Part shown: positions 176-61,084 of the stretch, in pieces
Layout of the letters: every line of letters starts with the position of its first letter
Numbering within the stretch: position 1 is the stretch's first letter
Assembly: GCA_963965975.1 (NCBI GenBank)
Contig: OZ014413.1
Location: 11,142,601 to 11,206,600, forward strand
Origin: Xestospongia bergquistia
Taxonomy: Eukaryota > Porifera > Demospongiae > Haplosclerida > Petrosiidae
Length of the DNA stretch: 64,000 bases
Direction of reading: 5' to 3'
The notes under the pieces: generated by a model
The model's database searches: none
Told to the model about the DNA's origin: nothing
Seen by the model: only the letters and a program-made list of their open reading frames with translations
Program-made: the position numbers and the translations under genes

Positions 176-2683
176 ATGGCAGTATACACTCACAGAACGA
201 ACTAGTCCTAGCTGGAGAACTTGGCACAAAAGACAAGTATCTCTTTGTAGCTAAAGACCATCCTACTGAAGCTTTTACAGCTATGCAGGAGCTAAGAGAT
301 GAACAAAAGCTCTGTGACATAACCCTGATTGTCCAAGGCCAAGAAATACAGGCTCACAAAATAGTTTTGGCAGCTTCTAGTCGCTATTTTCGGTCCATGT
401 TTGCAGGAGACATGTTAGAAAGTCGTAGCTCTGTTGTTGAGCTAAAAGATGTAGAACCTGAAGCTATAGAGTTATTAGTTGAATACTCCTATTCATCACA
501 GCTTGAAATTACTTCTAATAATGTTCAATCTGTCATGGCAGCTGCCTCTATTTTTGACTTTCCTGCTGTTTTAAATGCTACAGCAAATTTTCTAGCAACT
601 CATCTTCATCCTTCAAACTGTTTAGGTATGCGAGCGTTTGGCAAAACTTATGGCAGCGAATCTCTAGTAACAGCTGCTTCTTGGTACTTTAGAAATCATT
701 TCACAGATGCCGTGAAAAGTGAAGAATTTCTCACTCTACCATCAGATGTATTTGCAGATCTTTTAGACAGTGATGATGTTAATGTGAGATCAGAGGAAGA
801 CATATTTCGGGCATTAGAACTGTGGTTAAAACATGACCCAGAAAACAGAAAAGACCACTTACCCTTGCTTTTGAGACATATTCGTTTGCCTCTATTGTCT
901 TTGAGTTTTTTAAAGCAATTTGTAGAACCTAATCAATATATTAGACGGAATTTAGAATGTAGAGACATACTTGATGAGGCCAAAAACTATCATTTGTTTC
1001 CTGATGATTACTCTCAATTAAAGGGGACACAGTTTCATCCTCGTAAATCGACTGTTGGTGTTCTGTTTGCTATTGGTGGGCGTGGTGCTGTTGGAGAACC
1101 ATTCTGTAGTGTAGAGTGTTATAACTTCCGAACTAACCAGTGGTATGAAGGACCAGAATTAAGGTATGTCATTTTATTGTACTCTCTTGTAGTTAGCTTG
1201 CTCATGTGGTTAGTGTGTGTCATAAGTACAATTACTGTGAGGAGGTGTCTAATAAAATTATGGCTTATTTGGTATTGTAGGCAGACCTTGGTTGCTATGG
1301 TAACCAGTCCTTACTAGCTTTAGGCCATAAACACTTACCACAGTGATGCAGATGGCTTTGTAGATAGAGTAGTAGTTAGTACATAATAGGATATGCTTTT
1401 CAAATGTTACCTCTTGGCTTCTTTGTTTTGGTCAAGCACAGCATTCTGTAATAATGATATATACAATGTCTAATACTATATTATACATATAGAATATAAT
1501 ATAATATATATACATTATATAATACATATATATGACATATATATTATACATATTGAGTGTAATATAATATATATACATTATATAATACATATATAATTAT
1601 GTACAATGACTAGTAATATTATTACTATAGGATTTGTGGTATTTAGGATAATTAAATAATGTCTTGTGTCATAGCAGGTGGCTTTTATGGTTTATCGAGT
1701 ACATGATTAGATGTTATGATAATAATGTATTGTTTTAGATCACGACGAAGACATGTGGGCGTGGCTTGTCTCCATGGTAAATTATATGCAGTGGGTGGTC
1801 ACGATGGAAATCAACATCTCAATACAGTAGAATGTTATGACCCCAAGGTCAGTGTTTGTCGCCACTTGTATTGTGTACATGTGTACATTCATCTCTTCAT
1901 TTCTTTTTCCTATCCATTCTTTAAACTATCAATCATGTTAGGTTGGTCGTTGGGAGTATGTTCAACCGATGAAGACATTAAGACGTGGTATAGCTGTAGG
2001 TGTACTAGAGGGACCGATGTATGCTGTAGGTAAGTGATGTCATTATAATGTATTATATCAACTAATAGTGTTGATATTATTAGTATGAATGATGTTTTGG
2101 AGAAAGAACAAGTTGTTTTAAATTATAAGTTTATTATAGCATACTCTCTATATAATACTACATAGCATTAATGTTGTATTAACATTATACATAGTAATTA
2201 TATATTTTAGACATTTTATATTATTTCTATAATAGGGCTATTGTTTAGTTGCAATTAAGGAGACAGGAAATAGTTTTATTGTTTATTAATTCCATGTATT
2301 CTTTTTAATTAGGTGGTCTAGATGACGTCAATTGTTATCGTACTGTTGAGAGATATGATCCTCAATCAGATGAATGGACTGAAGTAGCAAGTCTAAAAAG
2401 TCCCCGTGGTGGAGTGGGTGTGGCTACACTTGGGAAGTATTTGTATGCAGCTGGTGGTAATGATGGGAGTGCTTCACTACAGACTGTAGAGAGGTATGAG
2501 TTGGTGACATGTGATAGTCATGTGATGGTCATGTGACAGGTATGATCCTCATACAAATAAGTGGATGGAAGTAGCTCCTATGGCTAAAAGAAGAGCTGGG
2601 GTTGGACTAGCTGCTTTGAATGGATATTTATATGCAGTAGGTGGATTTGATGATGCTTCACCTCTGGACACAGTAGAAAGGTA

Positions 2684-3026: not shown

Positions 3027-3320
3027 GGACATTGAGACTATTTTTATCTCAATAATCACTGCCCTACTCTTTATTATACTATTACCTCCTGTTTTTGATA
3101 TCAGTCTTCTCTCCGTCATCTTGAGTAGTTCTGTGCACAACATCTTGTAAATAACATGTTAAATGTTTTGACAGGTGGAGTCATTGTTTGTTAAAAGCTG
3201 TTTTTAAAAAATCTTTATGTAACACACAAAACATATTTTTATGTTGTAAATAGTTATTGTATAAAAATGTTCTATACATAAAAATATTTTTTCTTCAGTT
3301 AAATTTAAAAAATTCTCTTT

Positions 3321-5178
3321 TTACTTCAGAGACATAGCACCAACTTGACTACTAATATCAGATATTTCCTCTTCAGTAATAGTCCATTCTCCATTAAATG
3401 GATTATAGATTAACAATAATGATAGTTTGTTATCTAAACAAAAATTAACCTGATATATAAATGTACATGATAGCTTACCTTTCTCTTTGAATAGGTGGAA
3501 ATCTCTTGTAACAGGAGGTTCTCCATAATGAGCATGAAAGTTTAGAGTAACCTGTACAATTATTTCAGGCTTCTCAATTGGTTTCCATGGAAACTGGAAA
3601 CTGAATGGTTCAGAGAGGTAATGAGTTTGTCCATAAGTGGTCACTGAAACCTAAAGATATGAAAGACAAATAAAGTATTGTAAACAATGATCAAGTGACA
3701 TTATTTGTTTACTAATCAAATATTCTTAGTCGATAAAAATTATAAATAATTTTATTCCCTTAGCTCCATTTATCTCTCTGTCCATCTATCCATCTATCTG
3801 TCCATCCATTCATTCATTCATCTACTAGCATACACTCTTAAGTAGAGAGAAAGGATGTCCATAGATATCACGTCCCTCTATAGACAGAGATGTCATATCT
3901 TTGTCTTTACATGATCCTTGTATAATGACACGTCTTTGCAAACGAAACTCTGGTATATCAAGACCTAGTTTAGTCATTAACATTTTAGACACATCTTCAC
4001 ATTTAGCATTAATGCAAAGACTGGCTAGATGATCTAGTGGAGTCCTCTGTAAATTAACTATTACTAATCGTTGTCTCCTCTTTCCTACACGCTAAAAATA
4101 ATTTTTAAAATAATTCTATCTTTAAAAAATAGTTAATACCTGAGGGATGTTAGCTGCAGGAGTTACTGTTAGACTAGACCCCATTGCAATACAAAGGTCA
4201 GCAACTTCAGCCTCTTCAAATGATTTTGTTAGTTCATCTGATTAAATAAAAGTTAAAATAGATATAACTTAATTTTTTCAACAAATTAAAAGTCGTACAT
4301 TTTGGAAGACTCTCTCCAAAATTAATAATGGTGTCTTTGAGTGGACCACGACAACTTGGATTATCACATTTTTGATCAGTTTGATGATCATAAACTCCAT
4401 GAGCTGTCCTCACTTCATAGTCTCGTAAATATTCACACCCACATTTTGTGCAAATTTCCAAATTGGTGTTGCCATGGAGCTCATAAAGTGCTGTAGATAA
4501 TCACATGACTGTCACATGCAGTTACAATTACAGTACCTGCTTTAGGAAGACCACTTCTGCGATGAAGACCATCAACGTTCTGACTCACACAGCATTTAAG
4601 TATACCTTCCTATAATGGATGGATAGATGGATGCATAGATCGGTGTATGGATTAACACACAGATGGATAATGGATACATATATATGTTGACAATATCTTT
4701 ACCTGTTGTAGTTTAACTAACATCATATGAGTTGACGTAGGAATGGCTTTAACAATTGAAGTCACTCGATGTCTCTTATCTCTTAAAGCACCTTGAGCTT
4801 GTAACTCCCACACACCAGGTCCTAATGCAAGCAAAGATTCAATTGAGACTATGAGATGACAAGATACTTACTTACCAGTACTGAGAGCAGTGTTCATACC
4901 ACTGCGAAAATCTGGTACTGAAATAGAATTATATACAAATTAGTGGATTTATTTAATTCATCCTTACTTCCAGCTCCAGTACTGATTCCAGCACCCTAAT
5001 AATAATAATATATCATATTATGGTAATATTATGATTTGTTAACAAAACTCACAGTAAATGTAATCATATGTTTACTCTCCCTAATCCATTGAGCTAGTTG
5101 TTCCACTTTACTTTCCAGTACTTCTGGAGGATCAAAAAATTCTTTCTTTTCATCTTCTGCGCGAGCAGTGTGTGCCAT
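3321..5178 (-). CDS. Class IV (SIRT6/SIRT7-like) NAD-dependent deacylase, copy A
   Basis: Sirtuin: removes acyl groups from lysine using NAD+; class IV members are mostly nuclear (SIRT6 chromatin, SIRT7 nucleolus). Multi-exon, ATG at 5178 (MAHTARAEDEKKEFFDPPE). Core motifs in order: GAGIST + GIPDFR (NAD site, split over introns), VSQNVDGLH, catalytic His in ELHGN, zinc knuckle CTKCG...CDNPSC (all four Cys), DTIINFGE, AMGSSL, VIVNLQ. After the core it continues as LGLDIPEFRLQRR and a long C-terminal extension ending in SQVGAMSLK. The first exon resembles SIRT6 (FDPPE), whereas INFGE and the VNLQxTPxD region resemble SIRT7, so I do not assign either name. Frame across the last intron (after FKEKG) is inferred. 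Tail-to-tail with KLHL8 (~295 bp). Confidence 0.85.
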
Positions 5179-5227
5179 AATTATAAAGTTTGCATAAACT
5201 GAAAATTGTAGCTCTATAAATAATATT

Positions 5228-5311
5228 GTATACGGACGTATACGGAAACATTCTAAAAATAATATTTGTAAAAAAATAATAATTATGCTTAAAATATCAG
5301 TCTCCGTATAC
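5228..5311. promoter_or_regulatory. Inverted GTATACGGA / TCCGTATAC box pair upstream of sirtuin A
   Basis: About 50 bp upstream of the sirtuin A start. Left part holds GTATACGG twice (gtatacggacgtatacgga) followed by AAACATTCTRAAA. About 55 bp later come the inverted box TCCGTATAC and then a run into cttttaacgcg. The same arrangement is found upstream of sirtuin B and of RUVBL2. Either a promoter element or a very small inverted-repeat transposon. Confidence 0.6.
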
Positions 5312-5918
5312 TTTTAACGCGTAAGTTATTCTATTTATAGTAACAATCAATGAGGTAAGCTTACCAAGAATAAATACCCATTATTATAATAAAGATAACT
5401 GTCTGTGTAAACGCATGTCATATGATGTCATACTTATGTAATATAAGTATATAGTGACATTGATACCATAAATAGCAGTAGTGTTGTTAATAAGATTCCA
5501 ATATATAAAAATGTTTACTTTTATAGTTTATGTGAGCAAGTGTAGTTTTCATAACAATTGTTTGTATGTTTCATTGCATCTCTATTTCAAAAAAAATCAA
5601 ATCCTTTGAAGACTTTTGTCCACATCCTAAATCTTTCTATTGTTATTACTTTCAAGTTTATTTTCTTTCACTTAATTGTTAATAATTTAACTATTAATTA
5701 TTATTAAGTTATTAAATTATTTTAAATGTCACTGTTAAAATTTTTGTCTGATGCTTATCCATCCATCCATCTATACATTCATCCATTTTATATCTACCCA
5801 TTGATCTATTAATCCATTCATTTATCTAGCACACATCTCAATACAGTAGACTATATGATACAATTAAGGAGACAGGAAATAGTTTTATTGTTTATTAATT
5901 CCATGTATTCTTTTTTAG
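5312..5918. other. Intergenic between sirtuin A and duplicated KLHL8 fragment
   Basis: No coding signal. The part up to ~5720 belongs to the duplicated unit; 5755-5830 holds short atcc-type tetranucleotide repeats. The duplication junction lies near 5859, just before the copied intron and acceptor at 5918. Confidence 0.6.
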
Positions 5919-6603
5919 GTGGTCTAGATGACGTCAATTGTTATTGTACTGTTGAGAGATATGATCCTCAATCAGATGAATGGACTGAAGTAGCAAGTCT
6001 AAAAAGTCCCCGTGGTGGAGTGGGTGTGGCTACACTTGGGAAGTATTTGTATGCAGCTGGTGGTAATGATGGGAGTGCTTCGCTACAGTATGAGTTGGTG
6101 ACATGTGATAGTCATGTGATGATCATGTGTAAGTATGATCCTCATACAAATAAATGGACGGAGGTAGCTCCTATGGCTAAAAGAAGAGCTGGGGTTGGAC
6201 TAGCTGCTTTGAATGGATATTTATATGCAGTAGGTGGATTTGATGATGCTTCACCTCTGGACACAGTAGAAAGGTAAATTCTCTCTCTCTCTCTCTCTCT
6301 CTCTCTTACTCACTCACTATTTCCTTTTATAGATTTGATCCACATACAAATATTTGGCAATTTGTAGAGCCAGTGAATGTCTGTCGTGGAGGGGTGGGGC
6401 TTACAACACTTGGACAATACTTGTGTGCAGTTGGTGGCCATGATGGTAAAGTCTATCTTAATTCAGCAGAAATGTACAACCCAAAAACTAACTCATGGGA
6501 AATGGTGTCTTCCATGAACACTAGTCGAGCTGGAGCAGGTGTGGTTACCTTGGCAACATCATCTTTTAATTTCACTGTTCCAGAGTCTTTGTATTCCTTA
6601 TAA
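5919..6603 (+). pseudogene. Headless KLHL8 3' fragment with retained intron (Kelch blades only)
   Basis: Copy of KLHL8 exons 4-6 without BTB, BACK or the first blades. Three changes separate it from the parent. The 46-bp intron has lost its donor through a 12-bp deletion (TVER codons plus splice site) and its acceptor through substitutions (acag to gtaag). The former intron now reads as 15 in-frame codons ([15 protein letters not shown]) joining SASLQ to YDPHTNKW. The tail lacks the AGCTPIP residues. The reading frame stays open from 5855 to 6277 and again to the stop at 6603 through a (CT)n-containing intron. No promoter or start is obvious. It could be transcribed as an orphan Kelch protein, but pseudogene is the cautious call. 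Confidence 0.75.
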
Positions 6604-6894
6604 GGACATTGAGACTATTTTTATCTCAATAATCACTGCCCTACTCTTTATTATACTATTACTTCCTGTTTTGAGATCAGTCTCTTCTCCGTCATCTTGA
6701 GTAGTTCTGTGTACAACATCTTGTAAAAACATGTTAAGTGTTTTGACATGTGGAGTCATTGTTTGTTAAAAGCTGTTTTTTAAAAATCTTTATGTAACAC
6801 ACAAAACATATTTTTATGTTGTAAATAGTTATTGTATAAAAATGTTCTATACATAAAAATATTTTTTCTTCAGTTAAATTTAGTAAATTCTCTT

Positions 6895-8748
6895 TTACTT
6901 CAGAGACATAGCACTGACTTGACTACTAATATCAGATATTTCCTCTTCAGTAATAGTCCATTCTCCATTAAATGGATTATAGATTAACAATAATGATAGT
7001 TTATTATCTAAACAAAAATTAACCTAATATATAAATGTACATGATAGCTTACCTTTCTCTTTGAATAGGTGGAAATCTCTTGTAACAGGAGGTTCTCCAT
7101 AATGAGCATGAAAGTTTAGAGTAACCTGTACAATTATTTCAGGCTTCTCAATTGGTTTCCATGGAAACTGGAAACTGAATGGTTCAGAGAGGTAATGAGT
7201 TTGTCCATAAGTGGTCACTGAAACCTAAAGATATGAAAGACAAATAAAGTATTATAAACAATGATCAAGTGACATTATTTGTTTACTAATCAAATATTCT
7301 TAGTCGATAAAAATTATAAATAATTTTATTCCCTTAGCTCCATTTATCTCTCTGTCCATCTATCCATCTATCTGTCCATCCATTCATTCATTCATCTACT
7401 AGCATACACTTTTAAGTAGAGAGAAAGGATGTCCATAGATATCACGTCCCTCTATAGACAGAGATGTCATATCTTTGTCTTTGCATGATCCTTGCATAAT
7501 GACACGTCTTTGTAAACGAAACTCTGGTATATCAAGACCTAGTTTAGTCATTAACATTTTAGACACATCTTCACATTTAGCATTGATGCAAAGACTGGCT
7601 AGACGATCTAATGGAGTCCTCTGTAAATTGACTATTACTAATCGTTGTCTCCTCTCTCCCACACGCTAAAATAAGTTATGATAAATCTATCTTCAATAAA
7701 ATAGTTAATACCTCAGGGATGTTAGCTGCAGGAGTTACTGTTAGACTAGACCCCATTGCAATACAAAGGTCAGCAACTTCAGCCTCTTCAAATGATTTTG
7801 TTAGCTCATCTGATTAAATAAAAGTTAAAAATAGATATAAGTTAATTTTTTTCAACAATTAAAAGTCATACATTCTGGAAGATTCTCTCCAAAATTAATA
7901 ATGGTGTCTTTGAGTGGACCACGACAACTTGGATTATCACATTTTCGACCAGTTTGATGATCATGAACTCCATGTGCTGATCTCACTTGATAGTCTCGTA
8001 AATATTCACGCCCACATTTTGTGCAAATTTCCAAATTGGTGTTGCCATGGAGCTCACAAAGTGCTGTAGATAATCACATGACTGTCACATGTATTTGTCT
8101 TATTACAATTATAGTACCTGCTTTAGGAAGACCACTTCTGCGATGAAGACCATCAACATTCTGACTCACACAGCATTTAAGTATACCTTCCTATGAATAG
8201 ATGGATGCATAGATCGGTGTATGGATTAACACACAGACAGATAATGGATACATACATATGTTGACAATATCTTTACCTGTTGTAGTTTAACAAACATCAT
8301 ATGAGTTGACGTAGGAATGGCTTTAACAATTGATGTCACTCGATGTCTCTTATCTCTTAAAGCACCTTGAGCTCGTAACTCCCACACACCAGGTCCTAAA
8401 GCAAATAAAGATTCAATTGAGACTATGAGATGACAAGATACTTACTTACCAGTACTAAGAGCAGTGTTCATACCACTGCGGAAATCTGGTACTGAAATAG
8501 AATTATATACAAATTAGTGGATTTATTTAATTCATCCTTACTTCCAGCTCCAGTACTGATTCCAGCACCCTATAATAATATATCATATTATGGTAATATT
8601 ATGATTTGTTAACAAAACTCACAGTAAATGTAATCATATGTTTACTCTCCCTAATCCATTGAGCTAGTTGTTCCACTTTCCTTTCCAGTACTTCTGGAGG
8701 ATCAAAAAATTCTTTCTTTTCGTCTTCTGCGCGAGCAGTGTGTGCCAT
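6895..8748 (-). CDS. Class IV (SIRT6/SIRT7-like) sirtuin, copy B
   Basis: Tandem duplicate of sirtuin A with the same exon plan, start at 8748 (same MAHTARAEDEKKEFF start). All key motifs remain: GAGIST, GIPDFR, catalytic His of ELHGN, zinc cysteines in CTKCGREY...CDNPSC, DTIINFGENLPE, VIVNLQRTPLD. Differences from A are mostly conservative (YEVRTAHGVYDHQTDQ in A, YQVRSAHGVHDHQTGR in B); B keeps the HQTGR form shared with SIRT7 and copy C, so A seems to have drifted there. The upstream box pair is also kept (8805-8879). No stop or frameshift seen in exons; probably a functional gene. Confidence 0.83.
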
Positions 8749-8804
8749 AATTATAAAGTTTGCATAAACTGAAAATTGTTTAGATCAGCTCTATAAATAA
8801 TATT

Positions 8805-8879
8805 GTATACGGAAGTATACGGAAACATTCTGAAATTTATATAATAATCTAAGTGCTTAAAATATCAGTCTCCGTATAC
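8805..8879. promoter_or_regulatory. Inverted GTATACGGA / TCCGTATAC box pair upstream of sirtuin B
   Basis: Duplicate of the pair at 5228-5311: gtatacggaagtatacggaaac, then TTCTGAAATTT, a diverged spacer, and TCCGTATAC. It starts ~57 bp upstream of the start codon. The boxes are intact although the spacer has changed. Confidence 0.6.
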
Positions 8880-9436
8880 TTTTAATGCGTAATTACTCAG
8901 CGAATAGTGTTCTTTTTATAATAACAAACAATGACGTAAGCTAGCAACCATAAAAATTTAATATCTCAGGCATTTATAATTATGAAGACGACTGATTGTC
9001 ATATCATAATTATGATGTCATACTGACGTAATCTAAGTATTCAGTGACATTGATACCATAAACAGCAGTAATGCTGTCAATAATATTGCCACATAAAATA
9101 TTAATCATTACATAATAATGTTTACTTTTATAGTTTATGTGAGCAAATGTAGTTTTCTTAACAATTATTTGTATATTCCATTAAATTTATATTTAAAAAA
9201 AATTCTAACCTATTTGAGACACTAGACAATGGCCTTTTGTGCACATCCTAAATCTTCTATTGTTATTACTTCCAAGTTTTATTTTCTTTCATTTAGTTCC
9301 TCATAATTTAATTTAGTAATCATTATTAAGTGATTAGCAAGCAAATATTAATGATAATACATTATTGTAATTTATTTACAAAAAGTTAATGTTTACTCAT
9401 TCAGCTGTTAAAGAAAATAAATAGAGTTATAGTCAT
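8880..9436. other. Intergenic, sirtuin B to sirtuin C
   Basis: AT-rich, no coding signal. Degraded copy of 5312-5720 up to about 9340. Confidence 0.6.
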
Positions 9437-11335
9437 TTACTTCAGAGACATAGTACCAACTTGACTACTAATATCAGATATTTCCTCTTCAGTAATAGTC
9501 CATTCTCCATTAAATGGATTGTAAATTAATAACAGTGATAGTTTATTACCTAAATAATATAGAAAAGTCACTCCAATATATTGGATGTGGTCATTTACTT
9601 TTTCCTTTGACAAGGCGGACATCTCTTGTTACAGGAGGTTCTTCATAGTGGCCTTGAAAGTTTAGAGTAACTTGAACAGTCAGTTCACGTTTATCAACTG
9701 GTCTCCATGGAAACTGAAGCATAAATGGCTCAGCTTCAAGGTGATGTGCATGTCCATATATGGTCGCTGACACCTAAGAGAAGATAATTAGTAAATGAAA
9801 TTTAAAACTGTAGTGATAATAAGGTCTTGTTAACACTTGGTTTGTTAGAGCACCTGCTCCAAATTATTTTAAAGTTTACTGTTAAAATTTTTACCTTATG
9901 TTCATCCATCCATACATCCATTCACTTAATTATCTATCCATCTATCTGTCCATCCATTCATTCATTCATCTACTAACATACACTCTTAAGTAGAGAGAAA
10001 GGATGTCCATAGATATCACGTCCCTCTATAGATAGAGATGTCGTATCTTTGTCTTTACATGATCCTTGTATAATGACACGTCTTTGCAAACGAAACTCTG
10101 GTATATCAAGACCTAGTTTAGTCATTAACAATTTAGACACATCTTCACATTTAGCATTGATACGAAGACTAGCTAGAGGATCTAGTGGAGTCCTCTGTAA
10201 ATTGACTATCACTAATTGTTGTCTCCTCTCTCCCACACGCTAAAATAAATTTTAATAAATCTATCTTCAAAAAATATTTTATACCTCAGGGACATCAGCT
10301 GCAGGAGTTACTGTTAGACTTGAGCCCATTGCAATACAAAGGTCAGCAACTTCGGCCTCTTCAAATGCTCTTGTTTCTTGATCTGTATGATTAATTTAAA
10401 TTAGTCAGTTTTAAATAGATTATTAAAATGCATACCTTCTGGAAGGTCTTCCCCAAAATTAATAATAGTATCTCTGAGAATACCACGACAACTAGGATCA
10501 TCACATTTTCGACCTTAACAAAGAAGAAGTAAAATATATTCCACTTTATTCCTAACCTGTCCTGTGATCATGAACTCTTTTAGCAGACCTCACTTGATAG
10601 TCTCGTAGATATTCACGTCCACATTTTTTACAGATTTCTAAGTTGCTGTTGCCATGGAGTTCACAAAGTGCTATAGATAATAAATGACATGACTGTCACA
10701 TGTAGTGGTTTTATTATAGTACCTGCTTTAGGAAGACCACTTCTGCGATGAAGACCATCAGTGTTCTGACTTACACAGCATTTAAGTATACCTTCCTATA
10801 AAAAGGAGATACATGATTGGGTCTACTAAATCATGCAAGAATTAATATCTTTACCTGTTGTAGTTTTACAATCATCATATGAGTTGGTGTAGGGATGGCT
10901 TTAACAGCCAATGTTACTTGATGTTTTTTATCTCTTGTAGCTTTTTTAGCTCGTAACTCCCACACACCAGGTCCTAATTAAGTGAAGAGAGATACAAATG
11001 AGAGTTTAATTAAGGTAATGAGTTATATACCAGTACTGAGAGCAGTCTTCATACCACTGCGAAAATCTGGTACTAAATAGAGACAATATGTTTACATTAA
11101 TTAGTAGTAAGTGGTTCATTTATCCTTACTTCCAGCTGCAGTACTGATTCCAGCACCCTAAATCATATCAAAGAATTAATATTCTGTGACATGATCTGGT
11201 AAAACTCACTGTAAAAGTGATCATGTGTTTACTTTCTCTAATCCATTGAGCGAGTTGTTCCAGTTTCTCTTCTAGGACTTCTGGAGGATCAAAAATTTCT
11301 TTCTTTTCTTCTTCTTTTCGAGCAGTCTGTGCCAT
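9437..11335 (-). CDS. Class IV (SIRT6/SIRT7-like) sirtuin, copy C
   Basis: Third sirtuin of the cluster and the most diverged: exon sequences align with A and B, introns mostly do not, and the GTATACGG boxes are missing upstream. Start at 11335 (MAQTARKEEEKKEIFDPPE). Motifs: GAGIST in the exon near 11150, GTR/PDFR region near 11065, ELHGNSNLEICKKCGREY with GRKCDDPSC (zinc site), DTIINFGEDLPE, VIVNLQRTPLDPLA, LGLDIPEFRLQRR. The C-terminal extension is VSATIYGHAHHLEAEP...PPVTRDVRLVKG then NKLSLLLIYNPFNGEWT, ending at 9437. The last ~40 residues are almost identical to A and B while the exon before differs, which suggests gene conversion or strong constraint. Function as for copy A. Confidence 0.83.
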
Positions 11336-11744
11336 GATCTATTCTTTATTTGAAATACTTTAGTAATTTTTCTATAAACTTATATAATAAATGGACTATT
11401 ATTGCTATAGTAAAACAAACAATAAACAAGTATGACGAGGCTAGCAGTTCACTAGATTACCACCTCACAACACACAAATAATATTCATAACAATTACTGT
11501 ACAACTAATAAAATGCAGTGATGTCATTATGAGGTAATAGTAAAATTCATTACGTTTTGTTAACAATATTCATGTCATGAGCAGGTCTAATGTATATGTA
11601 ATAATAGCAAGTTAATAATTTTTGGTTGATTATATTCTGAAATTCAATAATAAATAAGTTAAAAAAAACTCAAAAAGGTTATGGAAACTCTTTTAGTGAA
11701 AACAATTATTATTATGTCATGATTTGTAATATTTGTTAATATAA
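11336..11744. other. Intergenic, sirtuin C to WD40 gene
   Basis: About 410 bp, AT-rich; no ORF, RNA or repeat recognised. Must hold the sirtuin C promoter and the 3' end of the WD40 gene. Confidence 0.6.
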
Positions 11745-16714: not shown

Positions 16715-16721
16715 AAAAAAA

Positions 16722-17074
16722 AAAACATGTTGTGTTGCCCAAACGATTCCTACTCGCTCACCCACTCAGGCTTCCACTTAGGCTCCAGGATTCCCTGCTA
16801 TTGCTAGCTGGGACCGCCACCTGGCTTGGTAACCCTCGTCTTCGCGAGGTAATCCTGGCTGGAGCATCGCCCTAACTTAAAACCAGCCGTACGGGATTCC
16901 AGCTCTTAGGGAATGTCGCATTCAGGAACCGGGAACCACAAATACACCAGCCTCTTCTCGTTTAAAGGGAGACTACCAGCCCTATCCTAGTCGGCCTTTC
17001 GGATACTCCGTAGAGTATGCTGGTAACCATCTCAGAGGTCTGATGCATTGCAGAACGCTGGCCCACAACACAAC
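16722..17074 (-). ncRNA. Unidentified ~350-nt structured RNA gene, copy 1
   Basis: Minus-strand unit bounded by an snRNA-type promoter (TATA at 17097-17107) and an 11-T run (16715-16725) that would terminate RNA polymerase III. The predicted ends pair: gttgtgttg at the 5' end with caacacaac just before the T-run. Internal hairpins include ATACTC-TACG-GAGTAT (UNCG loop), CC-GAAA-GG, CCTCG-CGAAGA-CGAGG, GGCTGG...CCAGCC and CCAGGATT...AATCCTGG. GC content is clearly above the surroundings. By eye it differs by one base over ~400 bp from the inverted copy at 60.7-61.1 kb. No ORF. It does not match my memory of 7SK, 7SL/SRP, RNase P/MRP, U-snRNA, Y or vault RNA. Confidence 0.65.
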
Positions 17075-17096
17075 CTATCCAAGGTGGTTTTCATTT

Positions 17097-17170
17097 CCTT
17101 TTATATGTACTGCAAATTTTGTCTTTATGCTCTTGTGGGGCGCGCTGTTTGTCGCCTATGAATATCATTA
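17097..17170 (-). promoter_or_regulatory. snRNA-type promoter (TATA and PSE-like block) of RNA copy 1
   Basis: catataaaagg (minus strand) lies ~25-30 bp upstream of the predicted RNA start. A second block shared with copy 2, cgccccacaagag (minus strand, ~17130-17143), lies where a proximal sequence element would be expected (-55 to -70). Sequence between the blocks differs between the copies. Confidence 0.5.
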
Positions 17171-18369
17171 ACGCTAGTTTGTGATTACCAGCGTCAGTGA
17201 GCTAACGACATCTATGAACATGATTACTATAGTATCGATGAGACTGCTAATAAAATTAATACTACTAAAATACTGTAACTTTCAAGAGCCAAGAATAAAA
17301 CTAGCCCTACTTAAGCAAACCTAAGACTGTCTATATAACAGTTAATACAAAAGTGGACATTCATAATTTTATGTCTCAATTTTATAAGAAGTGATGGCAT
17401 AACTTTAAGCTTTAAAAAGTGCAATAAAAAATATAGTACATCAAGAGAAGCCAGGTAAATAATAAGTTATATTGACAAAGTTAAAAATACCAGCTAAACA
17501 GGATTTGGATATAATAAATCTATATTATCAGTCACAACGAAGGACAGGGGTCAACTCCCTTCTGGATTATAGGTGCATACCCTTCACAAATGTAGTCTAG
17601 AATATTGTCTGAATTATCTAACTCATCAAAAATCAAGTCCTGAAGGTGAATTTCTTGTTACCCTGTTTAACATAATATTGAGTATCACTCTTAATATCAT
17701 CACTAACATTAATTAATAATAAAAACTTCAATATTGTTATTTCTAATATTTACAAATACAATTATAACAAACAAACTAGACTAAATTGTACATTAATAGT
17801 CCTCTAGTTAGTAGCTATATAAAATTAAATATTATCACTACGTCTAATACCACTAATTACTACTGATAATAAAAAAATCCATTAATTAAAGCCAATTAAT
17901 TTATCAAATCACCTAAAACTTATTTCCTACACACACAGTTCACTTAACAAATTAATATTATATTTAATAACATGTTCTATTTAATAATACACTCACTTTT
18001 AACAATTCCATTAAAATACTGATCCATTCAACATCAGAAGATTTTTTGATAACATTACAACTATTAACTTACTACTAAACAAACTTAGTTTCTATTAACT
18101 CTCCTGTCTATTAAACCTTATATCTCATATAGGCAGGTTTTTAAATTATTGATTTTTAATAATTGAGTGAATGATGTAATATATTGTAAGCCACAAGACA
18201 TAGTCATGGCGGGATTCTACTGACCAATCGGATTACTTTATTTATGATAATAACACGTCCATTGTACTTATCAAAGTAACACTTATTTTATATTGTTTCT
18301 ATAATACAATGCAGTGACTGGTAAAACCAGTTTCTCTGACAAGTTGCTCTAGTTTATATCTTACTGCGC
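17171..18369. other. Intergenic, no feature recognised
   Basis: AT-rich, stops in all frames; no exon, RNA or repeat that I can support. Confidence 0.5.
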
Positions 18370-20930: not shown

Positions 20931-21239
20931 GTTTATTTCAATTTTTTGAACTTTTCATGAATATAAATTTTGTATTGCTTTGCATATTTTCTAATTTAAT
21001 GAGCTCTTCATGAGTCACTATCTTCGGGCCTTATTTATTTTTAGATTATTTTCTATATCTTCCATTCATTCTTGTGAAAACAGGTTTGTTAATGAAGTAA
21101 GTTATTGTAATCTAAATTGTCATTACTGTCCAGCTATTAATATGTTCATATTTTCTAATATTGTATCAAGAAGTTCTTTAAATTATTTTACTATGTTGAG
21201 AATTCTATACTATCAATCAAAAACTACCATATGCATTGA

Positions 21240-22640
21240 TCAAGGAACTTCCAGTGAGTTTTAAACACACTTTACTATGTTGCTTTGAATAGAAAAGAGA
21301 ATTCTACCATCATTCAAAAACTATACCATTGATCAAGGAACTTCCAGTGAGTTTTAAACACACTTTACTATGTTGCTTTGAATAGAAAAGAGAATTCTAC
21401 CATCATTCAAGAACTATACCATTGATCAAGGAACTTCCAGTGAGTTTTAAACACACTTTACTATGTTGCTTTGAATAGAAAAGAGAATTCTACCATCATT
21501 CAAGAACTACCATTGATCAAGAAACTTCCAGTGAGTTTTAAACACACTTTACTATGTTGCTTTGAATAGAAAAGAGAATTCTACCATCATTCAAGAACTA
21601 TACCATTGATCAAGGAACTTCCAGTGAGTTTTAAACACACTTTACTATGTTGCTTTGAATAGAAAAGAGAATTCTACCATCATTCAAGAACTACCATTGA
21701 TCAAGGAACTTCCAGTGAGTTTTAAACACACTTTACTATGTTGCTTTGAATAGAAAAGAGAATTCTACCATCATTCAAGAACTATACCATTGATCAAGGA
21801 ACTTCCAGTGAGTTTTAAACACACTTTACTATGTTGCTTTGAATAGAAAAGAGAATTCTACCATCATTCAAGAACTATACCATTGATCAAGGAACTTCCA
21901 GTGAGTTTTAAACACACTTTACTATGTTGCTTTGAATAGAAAAGAGAATTCTACCATCATTCAAGAACTATACCATTGATCAAGGAACTTCCAGTGAGTT
22001 TTAAACACACTTTACTATGTTGCTTTGAATAGAAAAGAGAATTCTACCATCATTCAAGAACTACCATTGATCAAGGAACTTCCAGTGAGTTTTAAACACA
22101 CTTTACTATGTTGCTTTGAATAGAAAAGAGAATTCTACCATCATTCAAGAACTACCATTGATCAAGGAACTTCCAGTGAGTTTTAAACACACTTTACTAT
22201 GTTGCTTTGAATAGAAAAGAGAATTCTACCATCATTCAAAAACTATACCATTGATCAAGAAACTTCCAGTGAGTTTTAAACACACTTTACTATGTTGCTT
22301 TGAATAGAAAAGAGAATTCTACCATCATTCAAGAACTATACCATTGATCAAGGAACTTCCAGTGAGTTTTAAACACACTTTACTATGTTGCTTTGAATAG
22401 AAAAGAGAATTCTACCATCATTCAAGAACTACCATTGATCAAGGAACTTCCAGTGAGTTTTAAACACACTTTACTATGTTGCTTTGAATAGAAAAGAGAA
22501 TTCTACCATCATTCAAGAACTATACCATTGATCAAGGAACTTCCAGTGAGTTTTAAACACACTTTACTATGTTGCTTTGAATAGAAAAGAGAATTCTACC
22601 ATCAATCAAGAACTACCATTGATCAAGGAACTTCCAGTGA
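21240..22640. repeat. 93-bp tandem satellite, about 15 copies
   Basis: Units of 93 bp (some 91 bp, lacking 2 bp in actataccatt) run head to tail from ~21240 to ~22640. Conserved core: gttttaaacacactttac, tatgttgctttgaatag, aagagaattctacc, ttgatcaaggaacttcca. Identity between units is very high; the outermost units are diverged. Alternating 91/93 lengths break any reading frame, so it is not coding. Confidence 0.95.
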
Positions 22641-22875
22641 GTTTTTTAACATATTTAATTGTGTTGCTTTGGATAGAAAAGAATTTACCATTAATTAATT
22701 AGTGAGTTTTTTCTGGTCATATTGGATGAAGAACACTACAATTGATCAAGACTCAATCCAGTATATACAGATAAGTTTTTTTACAATATCTTCTACAGGA
22801 CATCACAGATTGATCAACTCCAAAACATTTTGAAGTACATTATATTTAATTGATATATCTCTTCTCCTTCCAAAC

Positions 22876-27665: not shown

Positions 27666-30600
27666 ATGTCTTTGGAAGAACCACGAGATGAAGGAGGTGG
27701 AAGAGAACAGTCTCCAAGACGCTCTTCCCCAAGAAAGTTAATTGTTCAGCCTTTCACTTCCAACGTTAAAGAAGACGAGAAAAATATTGAATTGCAAGAC
27801 TTTGAGACTAGTGCTCTAGCTGTCTTGAAAGAGGAAGATGAACCCACCAAGAAAACGGTCAGAGTATCTGAGTCGTATGAAGATGCTATAGCACGTCCCA
27901 GCAAAGAAAGCAAGAAGTAAATAAATATTAATACAATTGCAGCATTGTTATATTATTATAATAGGAAAAGCTGGAAATTTTGGCAAAAAGACAATGAAGA
28001 CAAAGATAATGAATATAAAGCTAAACCAGTACCTGTCTACAAACTGGTTAGTCATTTTTAACGTATAAACTTTTCAACTTTCATTTTCTGTTCTAGTTCC
28101 GATATGCTACCTGGTTTGATCTAATATTGATAATAATCAGCTTTATAGCTGCTATACTTCATGGCAGTGCCCTACCAGCATCAATGTACGTCTTTGGAGA
28201 CGTAACCAACTTATTTACCAATCATGAAATCTCTCGGGAAGTATTTGCTGGTATCAGAAGCAACTACACTAATGCTTATCAAGGTTTTACATTCAATGAA
28301 ACAGCTAATATCTCAAATATTACTGAAGCTGTTAATAACAGAATTATAACAGAGAATGTCATGCAAACAGAGAGTCAATTGACTAATCTTACTGTCCTAA
28401 TACTTCAGACATACTACAACATCAGTGTCAATGCTAGTGATATAAAAAGTTTAAGTTGTATCGTATTTAGTTATGCTGACACTAATGTCAATGGCCTATA
28501 CACCCCCTTCTTGGTGTTACAAGCAATAGTAACAAACAATGATTTCTCTATGCCTGTTACAACTGAAGCTTGTGATTGTTTAGTAACTCAATTTCAAGAA
28601 TATAATTCGGAAAGTCGTTGTCTTAGTGACTACACTTTTATAAATGGAGAAGGAGGAGTTGATGGCATATTATGGATAATTTATCTTTTCTTGATTATCA
28701 CTGTGGGCGTGTTCATACTAGCATATATACAGATATCTTTTATTCAGTTGGCCTGTGAAAGACAAATACACAAGATTAGACTGTTATATTACTCTTCAGT
28801 ATTAAAACAAGAAATTGGTTGGTTTGATTTGAATCCAAGTGGAGAATTATCTAGTAGATTAAATGAGTAAGTTAATGTAGATATATAATGTTAATATTAC
28901 AATAGTAAGTTAATGTAGATATATAATGTTAATATTACAATAGTAAGTTAATGTAGATATATAATGTTAATATTACAATAGTAAGTTAATGTAGATATAT
29001 AATATTAATATTACAATAGTAAGTTAATGTAGATATATAATATTAATATTACAATAGTAAGTTAATGTAGATATATAATATTAATATTACAATAGTAAGT
29101 TAATGTAGATATATAATGTTAATATTACAATAGTAAGTTAATGTAGATATATAATATTAATATTACAATAGTAAGTTAATGTAGATATATAATATTAATA
29201 TTACAATAGTAAGTTAATGTAGATATATAATGTTAATATTACAATAGTAAGTTAATGTAGATATATAATATTAATATTACAATAGTAAGTTAATGTAGAT
29301 ATATAATGTTAATATTACAATAGTAAGTTAATGTAGATATATAATGTTAATATTACAATAGTAAGTTAATGTAGATATATAATGTTAATATTACAATAGT
29401 AAGTTAATGTAGATATATAATGTTAATATTACAATAGTAAGTTTAGAGTAGATCACTATCACATGAGGCACCATCACATGAGAGACACTGGTCATGTGAG
29501 AGACATTGGTCATGTGAGATTTAAAAGTGATTGATTATCAAAATTAATGTTTTTATAGTTAGTAATGTTGTAGTGATTATGTTCAATTACTTTAATTTAT
29601 ATTTCCTCTTCTCTATCTTGCAGTGATATTGACAAGATACATAATGGTATTGGTGATAAACTGGCTATTTTAATTCAGTGGTTGGCTACGTTTGTTGGAG
29701 GGTTTGTCATTGGATTTATAAGAGGATGGCAGCTGACTCTATTATTAATAGCCATCACTCCATTTACTGCTTTGTCAGCATTTATTTTTTCTAAGGTAAA
29801 TAGGAGAGTGGCTTTTTAGTTAGATATATCTCTCTCTTTCTAGATTGGTACCATATTTACAAGTCATGAACAAAAGCTTTATGCATCAGCTGGTGCTATA
29901 GCTGAGGAGGTACTCACGTCAGTTAGAACTGTTATCTCATTTGGTGGAGAGTTTAAAGAAGTAGACAGGTGGGTGTGGTTAAGTGTCTTGATTACATATT
30001 AACAATTGATGTGTAGGAATGTAGTAAACTGGTTTGACTGGTTTTGTGGTTATATTTTAATTTTAATTACTACATTGTTACACTTCTCTTACTACATCTA
30101 TAGCTAGCATCAAATTTATATGATGTAATAATGACATCATTTTACAGATACAAGGTAAAATTAACTGATGCTCGTCGAGTTGGCGCCAAAAAGGGTGTGT
30201 CTATTGGTCTTAGTATGGCATTTATTTATTTCTTTGACTTCTTCACATATTCAGTTGCTTTTTGGTTAGTCAGTTTTCTATCATGCATTGATCTAACTTG
30301 TATATTAAACAGGTTTGGTGGGTTTTTAATCAGTGAAGAGATCTTGTTGGCTGGTGATGTGTTAGCAGTTTTCTTTGCTGTAATTATTGGTGCATTCTCC
30401 CTTGGTCAAGCTGGTCCTAATGCAGAGAGCCTTATCACTGCAGCAGGATCAGCTGGTGAAGTCTTTGAAATTATTGACAGAGTAATGATTTTAAAAAATA
30501 TTATCATTTATTATGTTATTTTAATTTAGGAGCCACCCATTGATTCCTCTTCAAATGAAGGTCAAACTCCTGATAACTTTGAGCCTTTTGTAAAGTTTCA

Positions 30601-37159: not shown

Positions 37160-39190
37160 ATGTCTCTGGAGGAAGCACAGGACAGCGGAGGTGGAACTAA
37201 ACAGTCATCAGCGTCAAGAAAACTAATTGTTCAGCCTTCCACCTCCAAAGCTAAAGAAGATGAGAAAAGTATTGAATTGCAAGACTTGGAAAATGGCGAG
37301 GCTAGTACTCCAGCTGTCTTGAGAGAGGAAGATGAACCTACCAAGAAAAAAGTCAGAGTATCTGAGTCGAATGAAGAAGATGTTGTTGTACTTCCAAGCA
37401 AAAAAGACAAAAAGTAAAAATTAATATTTAACACATTGTTGTTTTTATTATTTTATCACGTGACCTTTTAGAAAGAGTTGGAAATTTTGGCAAAAAGACA
37501 ATGAAGAGGATGATGAATATAAAGCTAAACCAGTACCTGTCTACAAACTGGTTAGTCATTTTTAACATAAACTTTTCAACTTTCATTTTCTGTTCTAGTT
37601 CCGATATGCTACCTGGTTTGATCTAATATTGATAATAATCAGCTTTATAGCTGCTATACTTCATGGCAGTGCTCTACCTGGAGCCATGTATGTCTTTGGA
37701 GACATAACCAACTTATTTGCAAATCATGAAATCTCCCGGGAAGTATTTGGTGGTATCAGAAGCAGATTCACTAATAGTTATCAAAATATTACATTCAATG
37801 AAACAGCTAATATCGCAGATATTACTGAAGCTGTTGATAACAGAATTATAACACCAAATGTCGTGCAAAACGAGAGTCAATTGACTGATCTTAATATCCT
37901 TATACTTCAGACATACTTCAACACCAATATCAGTGCTAGTGATTTAGAAGGTTTAAGTTGTGTTGTGTTTAGTTATGCTAACACTAATGTCAATGGCCTC
38001 AACACTCCCTTCTTGGTGTTACAAGAAATAGCAACAAACAATGATTTCTCTATGCCTGTTACAACTGACGCTTGTCGTTGTTTACAAACTGAGTTTCAAG
38101 AATTTAATTCAGAAAGTCGTTGTCTTAGTGACTACACTTTTATACATGGAGAAGGAGGAGTTGACGGCATATTATGGATAATCTATCTTTTCTTGATTAT
38201 CACTGTGGGCGTGTTCGTATTTGCATATATACAGATATCTTCTATTCAGCTGGCCTGTGAAAGACAAATACACAAGATTAGATTGTTATATTACTCTTCA
38301 GTATTAAAACAAGAAATTGGTTGGTTTGATTTGAATCCAAGTGGAGAATTATCTAGTAGATTAAATGAGTAAGTTAATGTAGATATATAATATTAATATT
38401 ACAATAGTAAGTTAATGTAGATATATAATGTTAATATTACAATAGTAAGTTAATGTAGATATATAATATTAGTATTACAATAGTAAGTTAATGTAGATAT
38501 ATAATATTAATATTACAATAGTAAGTTAATGTAGATATATAATATTAGTATTACAATAGTAAGTTAATGTAGATATATAATATTAATATTACAATAGTAA
38601 GTTAATGTAGATATATAATATTAATATTACAATAGTAAGTTAATGTAGATATATAATATTAGTATTACAATAGTAAGTTAATGTAGATATATAATATTAA
38701 TATTACAATAGTAAGTTAATGTAGATATATAATGTTAATATTACAATAGTAAGTTAATGTAGATATATAATGTTAATATTACAATAGTAAGTTAATGTAG
38801 ATATATAATATTAATATTACAATAGTAAGTTAATGTAGATATATAATGTTAATATTACAATAGTAAGTTAATGTAGATATATAATATTAGTATTACAATA
38901 GTAAGTTAATGTAGATATATAATATTAATATTACAATAGTAAGTTAATGTAGATATATAATATTAGTATTACAATAGTAAGTTAATGTAGATATATAATA
39001 TTAATATTACAATAGTAAGTTAATGTGATATATGGTATTTATTGTTATTGATTTTCACCTAATGTTGGGATATGGTACATATTATCTCATTTAGACATTT
39101 AGTGTGAAAGATTATTTTACTGTATTTTGTGTATTTTGTAAACCTTGTGTAAATGGAATGGAGTTAGTGATATAGCAGTGACTCTCTCTT

Positions 39191-50761: not shown

Positions 50762-52660
50762 ATGTCTGAGAGACCTCCTTTAATCCATGGACTCGAATTC
50801 CAAGTAAGATAACTTTCCACTATTAACTAATCCTGTGTTCTTTCTTTGACAATAGAGCCGTGCATTAGCCGCCAGAGCAGCTGAAACAGACAGGATACAG
50901 TTTCTTTGTGGTACTCTAACCATTCGAAATGAGAACCAAGTAAACTCCACCCACTAATTATACTTAAATATCTAATCACTACATTATATTTATAAGATTC
51001 ACTTAGTGGATTATGATGACGAGACAGGAGTCCTTAATAAAATGGTCTATCCTTATCCCAATGGAGAAATATGGTATATTCCATATATGGTCATTATATC
51101 ATGTCCATGTATCACACATGATGTAGGGATCTAGCAACGAGTCATGTTGATAAAGATCTTATTGCTGTTTGCTACGGAGGTCTAGAAAATGGAGAATATG
51201 TGCGTCATGCTTGTCTAGCTAAATTAGATGGTCAGTCACCTGACGAGACAGACGTAGGTACTATTGAAACTTTAGGAATGTTTGAGACAGCTGATACCAT
51301 CCATAGGTATATGACGATATTTCATCCATCCATTTTTGTCTTACCATCCATATAAGGGTATTAATATATTTCCTTTTCTCAGAGTATGCTGGCATCCTAG
51401 TGGTTTTCAGAATCAGTTAGTAACAGTTAATGATAAAGCAGGTATATCTCTTTGGTCTATTGATGGTGATAAACCACAGGAGATGAGTAAATTACAACTT
51501 GATTCAAGGGGACGTCTCAATTATTCAGCACTGTGTTGGAATTCTCATCACAATTATAACCAGGTCTTTATAACTGCTGACTCCGCCCTTTTTTCATGGG
51601 ACATACGAACTAAAAGGTAATAGTATCTACTTATATTAAGGGGTTACCTCATTTAATTAGTTAATTAATATTAATTGGTTTTTTGAAAACTGTGGTACTT
51701 GTAAATTATTAGAAATATCATTGGAATTTTAGAACCTGTCCTTAATATAAATGTACTCATTATTGAGTACATATCCCTATAATTAATTGAGTACATACCC
51801 CTTATAATTAATAAGTACATACCCCTTATAATTAATATAGTACATACCCCTTATAATTAATTGAGTACATACCCCTTATAATTAATTGAGTACATACCCC
51901 TTATAATTAATAAGTACATACCCCTTATAATTAATATAGTACATACCCCTTATAATTAATTGAGTACATACCCCTTATAATTAATAAGTACATACCCCTT
52001 ATAATTAATATAGTACATACCCCTTATAATTAATTGAGTACATACCCCTTATAATTAATTGAGCACATACCCCTTATAATTAATATAGTACTCAGCTCTT
52101 ATTGGATCATTATCATGGACCATGTGTTCGTTGTATTGATTGTAATCCAAATCGTCCTTATTATTTTGTATCTGGTGGTGATGACTGTAATATACAATTT
52201 TGGGACTGGCGTAAACTAGAAAAGCCCCTCCTATCTCGTCAAGACCATTCCCACTGGGTGTGGTCTGTTCAATACAATTTCTCATATGACCAATTAGTAC
52301 TTAGTGGAAGTAGTGACAGTCAGGTAAGCCCCTCAAACCACACCCATTTTTTATAACATTTAAAATAGGTAATACTTTCACGAATTGCCAGTATAGCATC
52401 AGAGCCACTTAGACATTTAGATGATGAGAACCAGGAACCAGTCCCGTGAGTTGAGACTCATTTCTATTCTATAGACTGATTCCCATTCCAGAACTCCAAA
52501 TGATGAAGTTATAGCAGTATATGAAGAACATGAAGATAGTGTATACAATGTAAGATGGAGTACTACAGATGCTTGGGTATTTGCTTCGCTCAGTTATGAT
52601 GGGAGACTAGTTATAAATCATGTACCTTCTAATGAAAAATTTGCCATACTTACTGCTTAG
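50762..52660 (+). CDS. EIPR1: EARP/GARP complex-interacting protein 1 (TSSC1), WD40 protein
   Basis: Recruits the EARP tethering complex for endosome and dense-core vesicle trafficking in animals. ATG 50762 ([14 protein letters not shown], human IYGLEFQARAL). Exons continue with [82 protein letters not shown], then after the repeat-filled intron [70 protein letters not shown] and [17 protein letters not shown], ending at 52660. Match to EIPR1 runs the whole length. The exon after the repeat begins at 52088 (tatag|TACTCAG), which keeps the frame ([13 protein letters not shown]). Confidence 0.94.
51758..52087 (+). repeat. 25-27-bp minisatellite ending in the splice acceptor of EIPR1
   Basis: About 13 units of gtacataccccttataatta + (attga / ataa / atatag). 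The unit type ending aatatag|tac occurs four times, and its last occurrence is the real acceptor at 52087. Variants follow a repeating order (tga, aa, atag), i.e. a higher-order repeat. Confidence 0.92.
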
Positions 52661-60477: not shown

Positions 60478-60654
60478 TATAATAAAATCAAATAATAATA
60501 ATAATTATTATAATTAATAGTGTTGTTCTAAGTAGGACTAGTTTTATTCTTGGCCCTTAAAAATATAGTTTTAGTTTTAAGTCTTTTTTAGTTCAGCGAT
60601 GCTAGTAATCATATTCATACTTGCCGTTAATGAGATTCATAAGCGTACACAGTG

Positions 60655-60700
60655 CCGCCCCACAAGAGACTGAAGACAAAATCGTAAGTACATATAAAAG
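60655..60700 (+). promoter_or_regulatory. snRNA-type promoter (PSE-like block and TATA) of RNA copy 2
   Basis: gccgccccacaagag (60653-60668) and catataaaagg (60691-60701), spaced ~24 bp; the same blocks and spacing precede copy 1. The RNA start predicted from stem pairing lies ~25-30 bp after the TATA box. Confidence 0.5.
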
Positions 60701-60722
60701 GAAATGAAAACCACCTTGGATA

Positions 60723-61076
60723 GGTTGTGTTGTGGGCCAGCGTTCTGCAATGCATCAGACCTCTGAGATGGTTACCAGCATACTCTACGGAGTATCCGAA
60801 AGGCCGACTAGGATAGGGCTGGTAGTCTCCCTTTAAACGAGAAGAGGCTGGTGTATTTGTGGTTCCCGGTTCCTGAATGCGATATTCCCTAAGAGCTGGA
60901 ATCCCGTACGGCTGGTTTTAAGTTAGGGCGATGCTCCAGCCAGGATTACCTCGCGAAGACGAGGGTTACCAAGCCAGGTGGCGGTCCCAGCTAGCAATAG
61001 CAGGGAATCCTGGAGCCTAAGTGGAAGCCTGAGTGGGTGAGCGAGTAGGAATCGTTTGGGCAACACAACATGTTTT
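60723..61076 (+). ncRNA. Unidentified ~350-nt structured RNA gene, copy 2
   Basis: Inverted near-identical copy of 16722-17074; by eye one substitution (gcgatattcc here, gcgacattcc in copy 1) from the TATA box to the T-run. The 12-T run (61073-61084) would terminate Pol III. Homology also covers ~12 bp past the T-run (aaatctttcaact / aaatctttaactt) and, with more changes, ~100 bp upstream, so the promoter was copied as well. That argues for gene duplication rather than retroposition. Terminal stem gttgtgttg (60724-60732)/caacacaac (61061-61069). Confidence 0.65.
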
Positions 61077-61084
61077 TTTTTTTT

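Follow-up and report, generated by a model that had tools for sequence, protein, structure and literature searches.

Two segments of the window, that is, of the whole 64,000-nucleotide stretch of sponge DNA analysed here, look like a single RNA gene present twice in opposite orientation, and the question is which RNA they would encode. Much of the original prediction, made from the letters of this stretch, holds on closer reading. The segments at 60656-61083 (+) and 16715-17142 (-) are indeed inverted copies with 98% identity across 428 nt, and between TATA box and T-run one base distinguishes them (gatattccc/gacattccc), close to the one difference that had been counted, apart from the T-run itself, which is 12 T long in one copy and 11 T in the other, the two lengths that had been given for the terminator. 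The TATA box lies at about -30, in the predicted range of -25/-30, and the ends of the putative RNA are complementary as proposed (GUUGUGUUG/CAACACAAC). Upstream of the TATA box the two copies have diverged, except for the PSE-like block already pointed out and for a distal element, which we found to be shared as well (Table 1).

Table 1. Positions of the predicted RNA genes, their putative control elements and related family copies (window coordinates unless a contig or locus is named).
Feature	Position	Strand	Remark
RNA gene copy 2 (type A), ~354 nt	60723..61076	+	predicted; start 60722/60723 placed by U6-like spacing
Distal element TTAATGAGATTCAT, copy 2	60627..60640	+	similar sites 5' of both U6 genes
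PSE CCCCACAAG...ACAAAAT, copy 2	60658..60682	+	common to U6 and RNase P genes
TATA box ATATAAAAG, copy 2	60692..60700	+	
T-run terminator, copy 2 (12 T)	61073..61084	+	
RNA gene copy 1 (type A), ~354 nt	16722..17075	-	predicted
Distal element TTAATGATATTCAT, copy 1	17158..17171	-	
PSE, copy 1	17116..17140	-	
TATA box, copy 1	17098..17106	-	
T-run terminator, copy 1 (11 T)	16715..16725	-	
Type B copies near U6 / SRP genes	C5:8814868 and C8:7407010		
3' fragments, a few hundred bases 3' of intact copies	L053:2418-2553, L070:2309-2422, L073:2686-2858, L039:2254-2365	same strand	

The window also holds a tandem duplication, three-fold in part, at 3300-11400, with nearby open reading frames that we take to be Kelch/BTB-like from their reading, and tandem repeat arrays of 93 bp at 21141-22732 and of 25 bp at 51750-52110. 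Two arrays of a 38-bp minisatellite (28706-29575 and about 38208-39100) occupy matching places in two tandem genes, which on reading their frames are presumably ABC-transporter-like.

We compared the locus with known RNA families. An Rfam scan of the whole window at gathering thresholds gave no match, and a lax scan of the locus (E up to 10) returned only Qrr (15.3 bits) and SNORA38 (11.8 bits), both at chance level, in keeping with the earlier failure to recognise SRP, 7SK, RNase P, MRP or a U-RNA in it. A Pol III promoter and a size of this order are shared by some known essential RNAs, and a diverged RNase P, MRP, SRP, telomerase or U RNA was considered; the original prediction had named RNase P and MRP among the choices. 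The genome search did not bear this out: elsewhere in the genome RNase P (best 156.7 bits, at least four loci above the cut-off) and MRP (118.2 bits, at least one gene) both exceed their family cut-offs, and SRP (226.2 bits, at least one gene) and U6 (RF00026, loci L032 and L033, 114.1 bits, at least two genes) are found as well, all of these counts being lower bounds and the U6 count coming from the best 48 of 15937 candidates scored. A telomerase RNA is unlikely, since no template longer than 6 nt was present for the three repeats tried (CCCTAA, CCTAA and CCCTAAA; the host telomere repeat may be another). Altogether, we regard the identity of the gene with one of these essential RNAs as close to negligible in probability. 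A guide RNA was also considered, and the alignment described below contains no variable guide segment; a snoRNA and a spliced leader were set aside by Rfam and by eye only. An exact 20-mer pattern in bacterial and archaeal contigs and one pattern in viral contigs gave 0 matches, a search confined to prokaryotes and viruses, and none of the titles and abstracts listed from the open-licence PMC literature described a comparable Pol III RNA in a sponge.

We then asked how many such genes the source assembly contains (146.5 Mb in 21 contigs, of which C1 to C15 make up about 146.3 Mb, with two lengths assumed). The 18,997-base contig C21 opens with a tRNA-Phe(GAA) gene, and behind it the first 600 bases hold what we read as a mitochondrial small-subunit rRNA, which would fit the mitochondrial genome of a sponge. 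The best 40 of the 424 candidate places in an assembly search were 98-100% identical over about 428 nt. The 5' end of the window copies, which we call type A, occurred at 159 places (first 36 nt, at most 3 mismatches). A DNA search with a truncated paralog brought to light another 5' end, type B, present at 439 places, and the 3' end followed by TTTT was found at 319; reversed-pattern controls for the three ends gave 0 each. From these counts we estimate a family of roughly 300 to 600 members that keep one or both ends. As there are 598 5' ends (A+B) for 319 3' ends, many copies may be truncated or diverged. On contig C1 an exact 3' end stands at full-length distance from 46 of the 51 exact type A 5' ends, and one of the other five (L025) is of full length with a variant end. 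Conversely, of the 76 exact 3' ends on this contig, 30 lack an exact type A partner on the 5' side; their sources are type B genes, copies whose 5' end has changed, or fragments. L087, a type B copy carrying one mismatch, proved on full reading to be of full length and 96% identical.

The types differ in where they lie. Among the 98 exact B copies (of 439) used for position statistics, 70 are within 0.5 Mb of a contig end (10% expected) and 90 within 1 Mb (20% expected), the lengths of C10 and C14 being assumed from the length order. Among the type A matches listed (100 of 159, all on C1-C4), 17 are within 1 Mb of an end (12% expected). The start of contig C12 carries what appears, by eye, to be a diverged family copy. 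The distance to a U6 gene is about 1.7 kb for one type B copy, and another lies about 10 kb from the SRP gene. In four stretches, two of them taken from one cluster on C1 and the others from clusters on C2, we found no coding partner shared by all (ORFs of at least 90 aa); one ORF of the C1 cluster is, as we read it, DDE-transposase-like.

Looking at the regions upstream of the copies (65-67 places were analysed in detail, overlapping loci being dropped), we found the same elements at the same distances. ATATAAA is present at -30/-31 in 63 of 67 copies, and CCCAC, the start of the PSE, at -63/-64 in 51 of 67, as counted with a plain pattern that in some cases hit a later occurrence. Further upstream, ATGAnWTTCA occurs in 57 of 67 copies, 41 of them with the motif at -92, and in 0.3% of shuffled upstream regions; it resembles POU-type sites. 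Both U6 genes of this genome share this arrangement, with a CCCAC or CCCCG start at -63, ATATAAAA at -30, an ATGAnATTCA element further upstream (ATGAAATTCA at -111 in one and ATGATATTCA at -103 in the other) and a T-run. The 33-nt spacing between PSE and TATA box recurs in three RNase P genes, one of which also carries the distal motif. A PSE-TATA matrix was built from 38 distinct sequences, taken from the 54 of 66 copies in which the TATA pattern was found. At the promoter position the U6 genes scored 25.9 and 1.4 and three of the four RNase P loci -2.0 to -6.6; the next best window score (both strands, two copies excepted) was -14.8, below these U6 and RNase P promoters. The matrix missed the promoters of MRP, SRP and the fourth RNase P-like locus. 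Judged by the matrix, the family promoters are U6-type Pol III promoters, and the snRNA-type promoter of the original prediction is borne out, with transcription itself putative.

All 40 type A copies that were read past the 3' end run into at least five T, and among 66 copies of both types the T-run is 5-19 long, TTTT having been a condition of selection. An internal TTTT is also present at position 198 of types A and B and could end transcription early.

The RNA was then examined by aligning 33 distinct sequences that have both ends, 17 of type A and 16 with B-type ends (3 of them diverged), the truncated members L024/L042 and L044 being left out. RNAalifold predicts for these 33 sequences a consensus of two domains closed by a stem between the ends. 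In this end stem a U-A pair is present in 17 sequences and a G-C pair in 16, with no mixed sequence among the 33, so that the difference between types A and B reads as a compensatory U-A/G-C change. Across the 119 modelled pairs, 99.8% of the cells are paired, in a structure derived from the same alignment that served the covariation test. Changes on both sides were seen at 6 of the 119 pairs, compared with a mean of 1.5 in shuffles and 0-1 when the partners were shifted 1-3 columns along. Further pair types showed no excess over the shuffles (25 vs 24.4, and 199 of 500 shuffles reach 25). The strongest covarying pair is that of the end stem; the other five of the six rest on one to three diverged sequences, possibly decaying copies, and the covariation is modest. 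Of the stable UNCG- and GNRA-type hairpins predicted at first, the former stands, as a UACG loop that is UUCG in 5 of 33 sequences; the GNRA-type loop is weak because its GAAA is carried by only 2 pairs in the consensus fold. In another hairpin the CGAAGA loop is swapped for UC-UUCG-GA and variants while the stem is kept. The folding energy of the RNA alone is unremarkable (z of -1.44, with 9 of 100 shuffles folding equally well).

How the copies evolve was studied on 242 of 2145 locus pairs, those with a flank identity of at least about 80% and few gaps. Counting mismatches only, we obtained a mean divergence of 11.3% for the flank, 9.3% for the promoter region and 1.7% for the RNA. Within the body of the RNA, 24 pairs of sites show all four combinations of alleles, also across the end-types; this count is based on 30 sequences, the 3 diverged ones being left out, and the 24 site pairs are not independent, columns 251-254 forming one hairpin variant. 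One example is given by a type A copy (L021) and a type B copy (L050) of the same contig, which have an identical body and share part of the downstream flank, and which differ at both ends. Exchange between copies acting on the body, together with selection on the paired ends, would explain reassortment with linked ends; recurrent mutation is a weaker alternative for the allele combinations. Several loci carry partial copies downstream of intact ones on the same strand, mostly 3' or inner-3' fragments, the exceptions being a promoter piece (L022) and an inner 5' piece (L041); at L042 there are two 5' halves, one upstream of the intact copy and one on the other strand. At L022, 33 nt of promoter (1365-1397, minus strand) lie inside the flank, and the upstream flank of L017 holds about 17 nt of RNA sequence (by eye). 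Sister copies lack both pieces, as though template switching had put them there.

Could such a family be a selfish repeat instead, spreading as a unit transcribed by Pol III, either SINE-like or as a small DNA element, with no function for the host? Pol III SINEs also have many dispersed copies, and hundreds of dispersed truncated copies were what the original prediction expected of a SINE-like repeat. Here the copies are indeed dispersed by the hundred, many perhaps incomplete, with degenerate fragments beside intact ones; for many pairs homology stops near 94 nt upstream and shortly past the terminator (median end past the first TTTT of 13 nt for A-B pairs, 16 for B-B and 73 for A-A), and a spreading unit would likewise yield near-identical copies. 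However, most exact type A copies of C1 are of full length, and the promoter, which is external and would not be transcribed, belongs to the shared unit and was copied along with the gene; since a SINE spreading through its transcript would lose such a promoter, this is not SINE behaviour. The left edge of the shared unit varies, with modes near 94 and 200-300 nt, and target-site duplications showed no excess over mismatched controls, direct repeats of at least 9 nt flanking 1 of 66 copies compared with 3 of 324 controls (6 of 66 and 24 of 324 in a wider window). There is thus no sign of retroposition in these sequences, and at duplicated loci the RNA is far less diverged than the flanks, so that a selfish repeat seems unlikely to us. 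A family of silent copies, promoter-bearing pseudogenes that are homogenised by exchange and never transcribed, would fit the crowding of exact B copies at contig ends, where exchange is common. It would not account for promoter spacing and terminators that persist in otherwise diverging flanks, nor for paired ends that are kept through change, and we hold it to be very improbable.

The remaining candidate is a strongly diverged 7SK RNA of this animal, holding P-TEFb inactive via HEXIM and amplified to hundreds of genes. 7SK is of a similar size class, with a Pol III type 3 promoter, paired ends and a U tail, all of which the family RNA resembles in general. It has in addition a 3' hairpin directly before the U tail, and a gene number in the hundreds would be unusual for it. 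The genome contains a HEXIM gene (L084, 114.2 bits), and since HEXIM is present a 7SK-like RNA should exist somewhere in the animal; yet a genome search with RF00100 found no 7SK match, as it found none in control genomes either. At the locus itself no Rfam 7SK family matched at E up to 10, and in the consensus fold what follows the closing stem, up to the U tail, is predicted to be unpaired and forms no hairpin. Variation of 7SK sequence among protostomes, reported in PMC8406779, would make a diverged form easier to accept, and a Drosophila 7SK-like RNA is described with GAUG instead of GAUC. A repeated GAUC in the 5' hairpin, the HEXIM site, is nevertheless given as a feature of 7SK in PMC8406779, and in our alignment GAUC is present in 3 of 33 sequences, all diverged members (L055, L052, L045), and in none of types A and B proper. 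Taken together, the lack of an Rfam match, of GAUC in types A and B and of the 3' hairpin, and the hundreds of copies, make a 7SK identity quite doubtful.

We favour a functional, lineage-specific, high-dosage Pol III RNA family built on one structured RNA of ~354 nt, which we consider the probable reading. It draws on copy number, promoter and terminator anatomy, pairing of the ends with compensatory change, constraint and reassortment of the body, all read from the DNA; that Pol III transcribes the genes, that the RNA is abundant and that it serves as a scaffold in an RNP are our inferences. Each gene would be transcribed, putatively by Pol III, from a U6-type promoter (distal element, PSE and TATA box) to a T-run terminator. 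The RNA would be closed by a stem between its 5' and 3' ends, inside which the 5' domain is a long hairpin bearing an arm with a UNCG cap and the 3' domain is branched, the two end-types enclosing a common body. The many gene copies would provide high dosage, and exchange between copies together with purifying selection would keep the RNA uniform while the flanks drift. Its most likely role would be that of an RNP scaffold, as for 7SK and SRP RNA.

A comparable case may be the Class I RNAs of dictyostelids. As described in PMC7919456, these are also lineage-specific and encoded by many genes with a conserved upstream promoter element, and they have a 5'/3' end stem with compensatory change and a suspected Pol III transcription. 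They are about 60 nt long and variable between loci in that account, whereas the sponge RNA is ~354 nt long and nearly uniform, the likeness drawn here being one of description (PMC7919456).

The animal has at least two U6 genes, whose transcript is unrelated to the family by Rfam, and at least one SRP gene, next to which the copies of the unnamed RNA gene number several hundred. Few kinds of U6-type Pol III gene exist (U6, 7SK, RNase P, MRP and some others), and as a rule each has a small number of copies. If transcribed, the family RNA may be among the abundant RNAs of the animal, and such a putative RNA would have escaped notice since neither poly(A) sequencing nor protein-based annotation picks up RNAs of this kind. 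A HEXIM gene with no recognisable 7SK provides one concrete and testable hypothesis. The linked end-types and the reassorting body would constitute a natural experiment in which concerted evolution is held in check by RNA pairing. We see about an even chance that these genes represent an abundant new class of animal RNA, ~354 nt long and in two subtypes, with several hundred near-identical genes, exact type B copies near chromosome ends and an RNP role of its own. Several hundred copies of an unrecognised RNA gene suggest that an animal genome may harbour an abundant RNA that is as yet undescribed.
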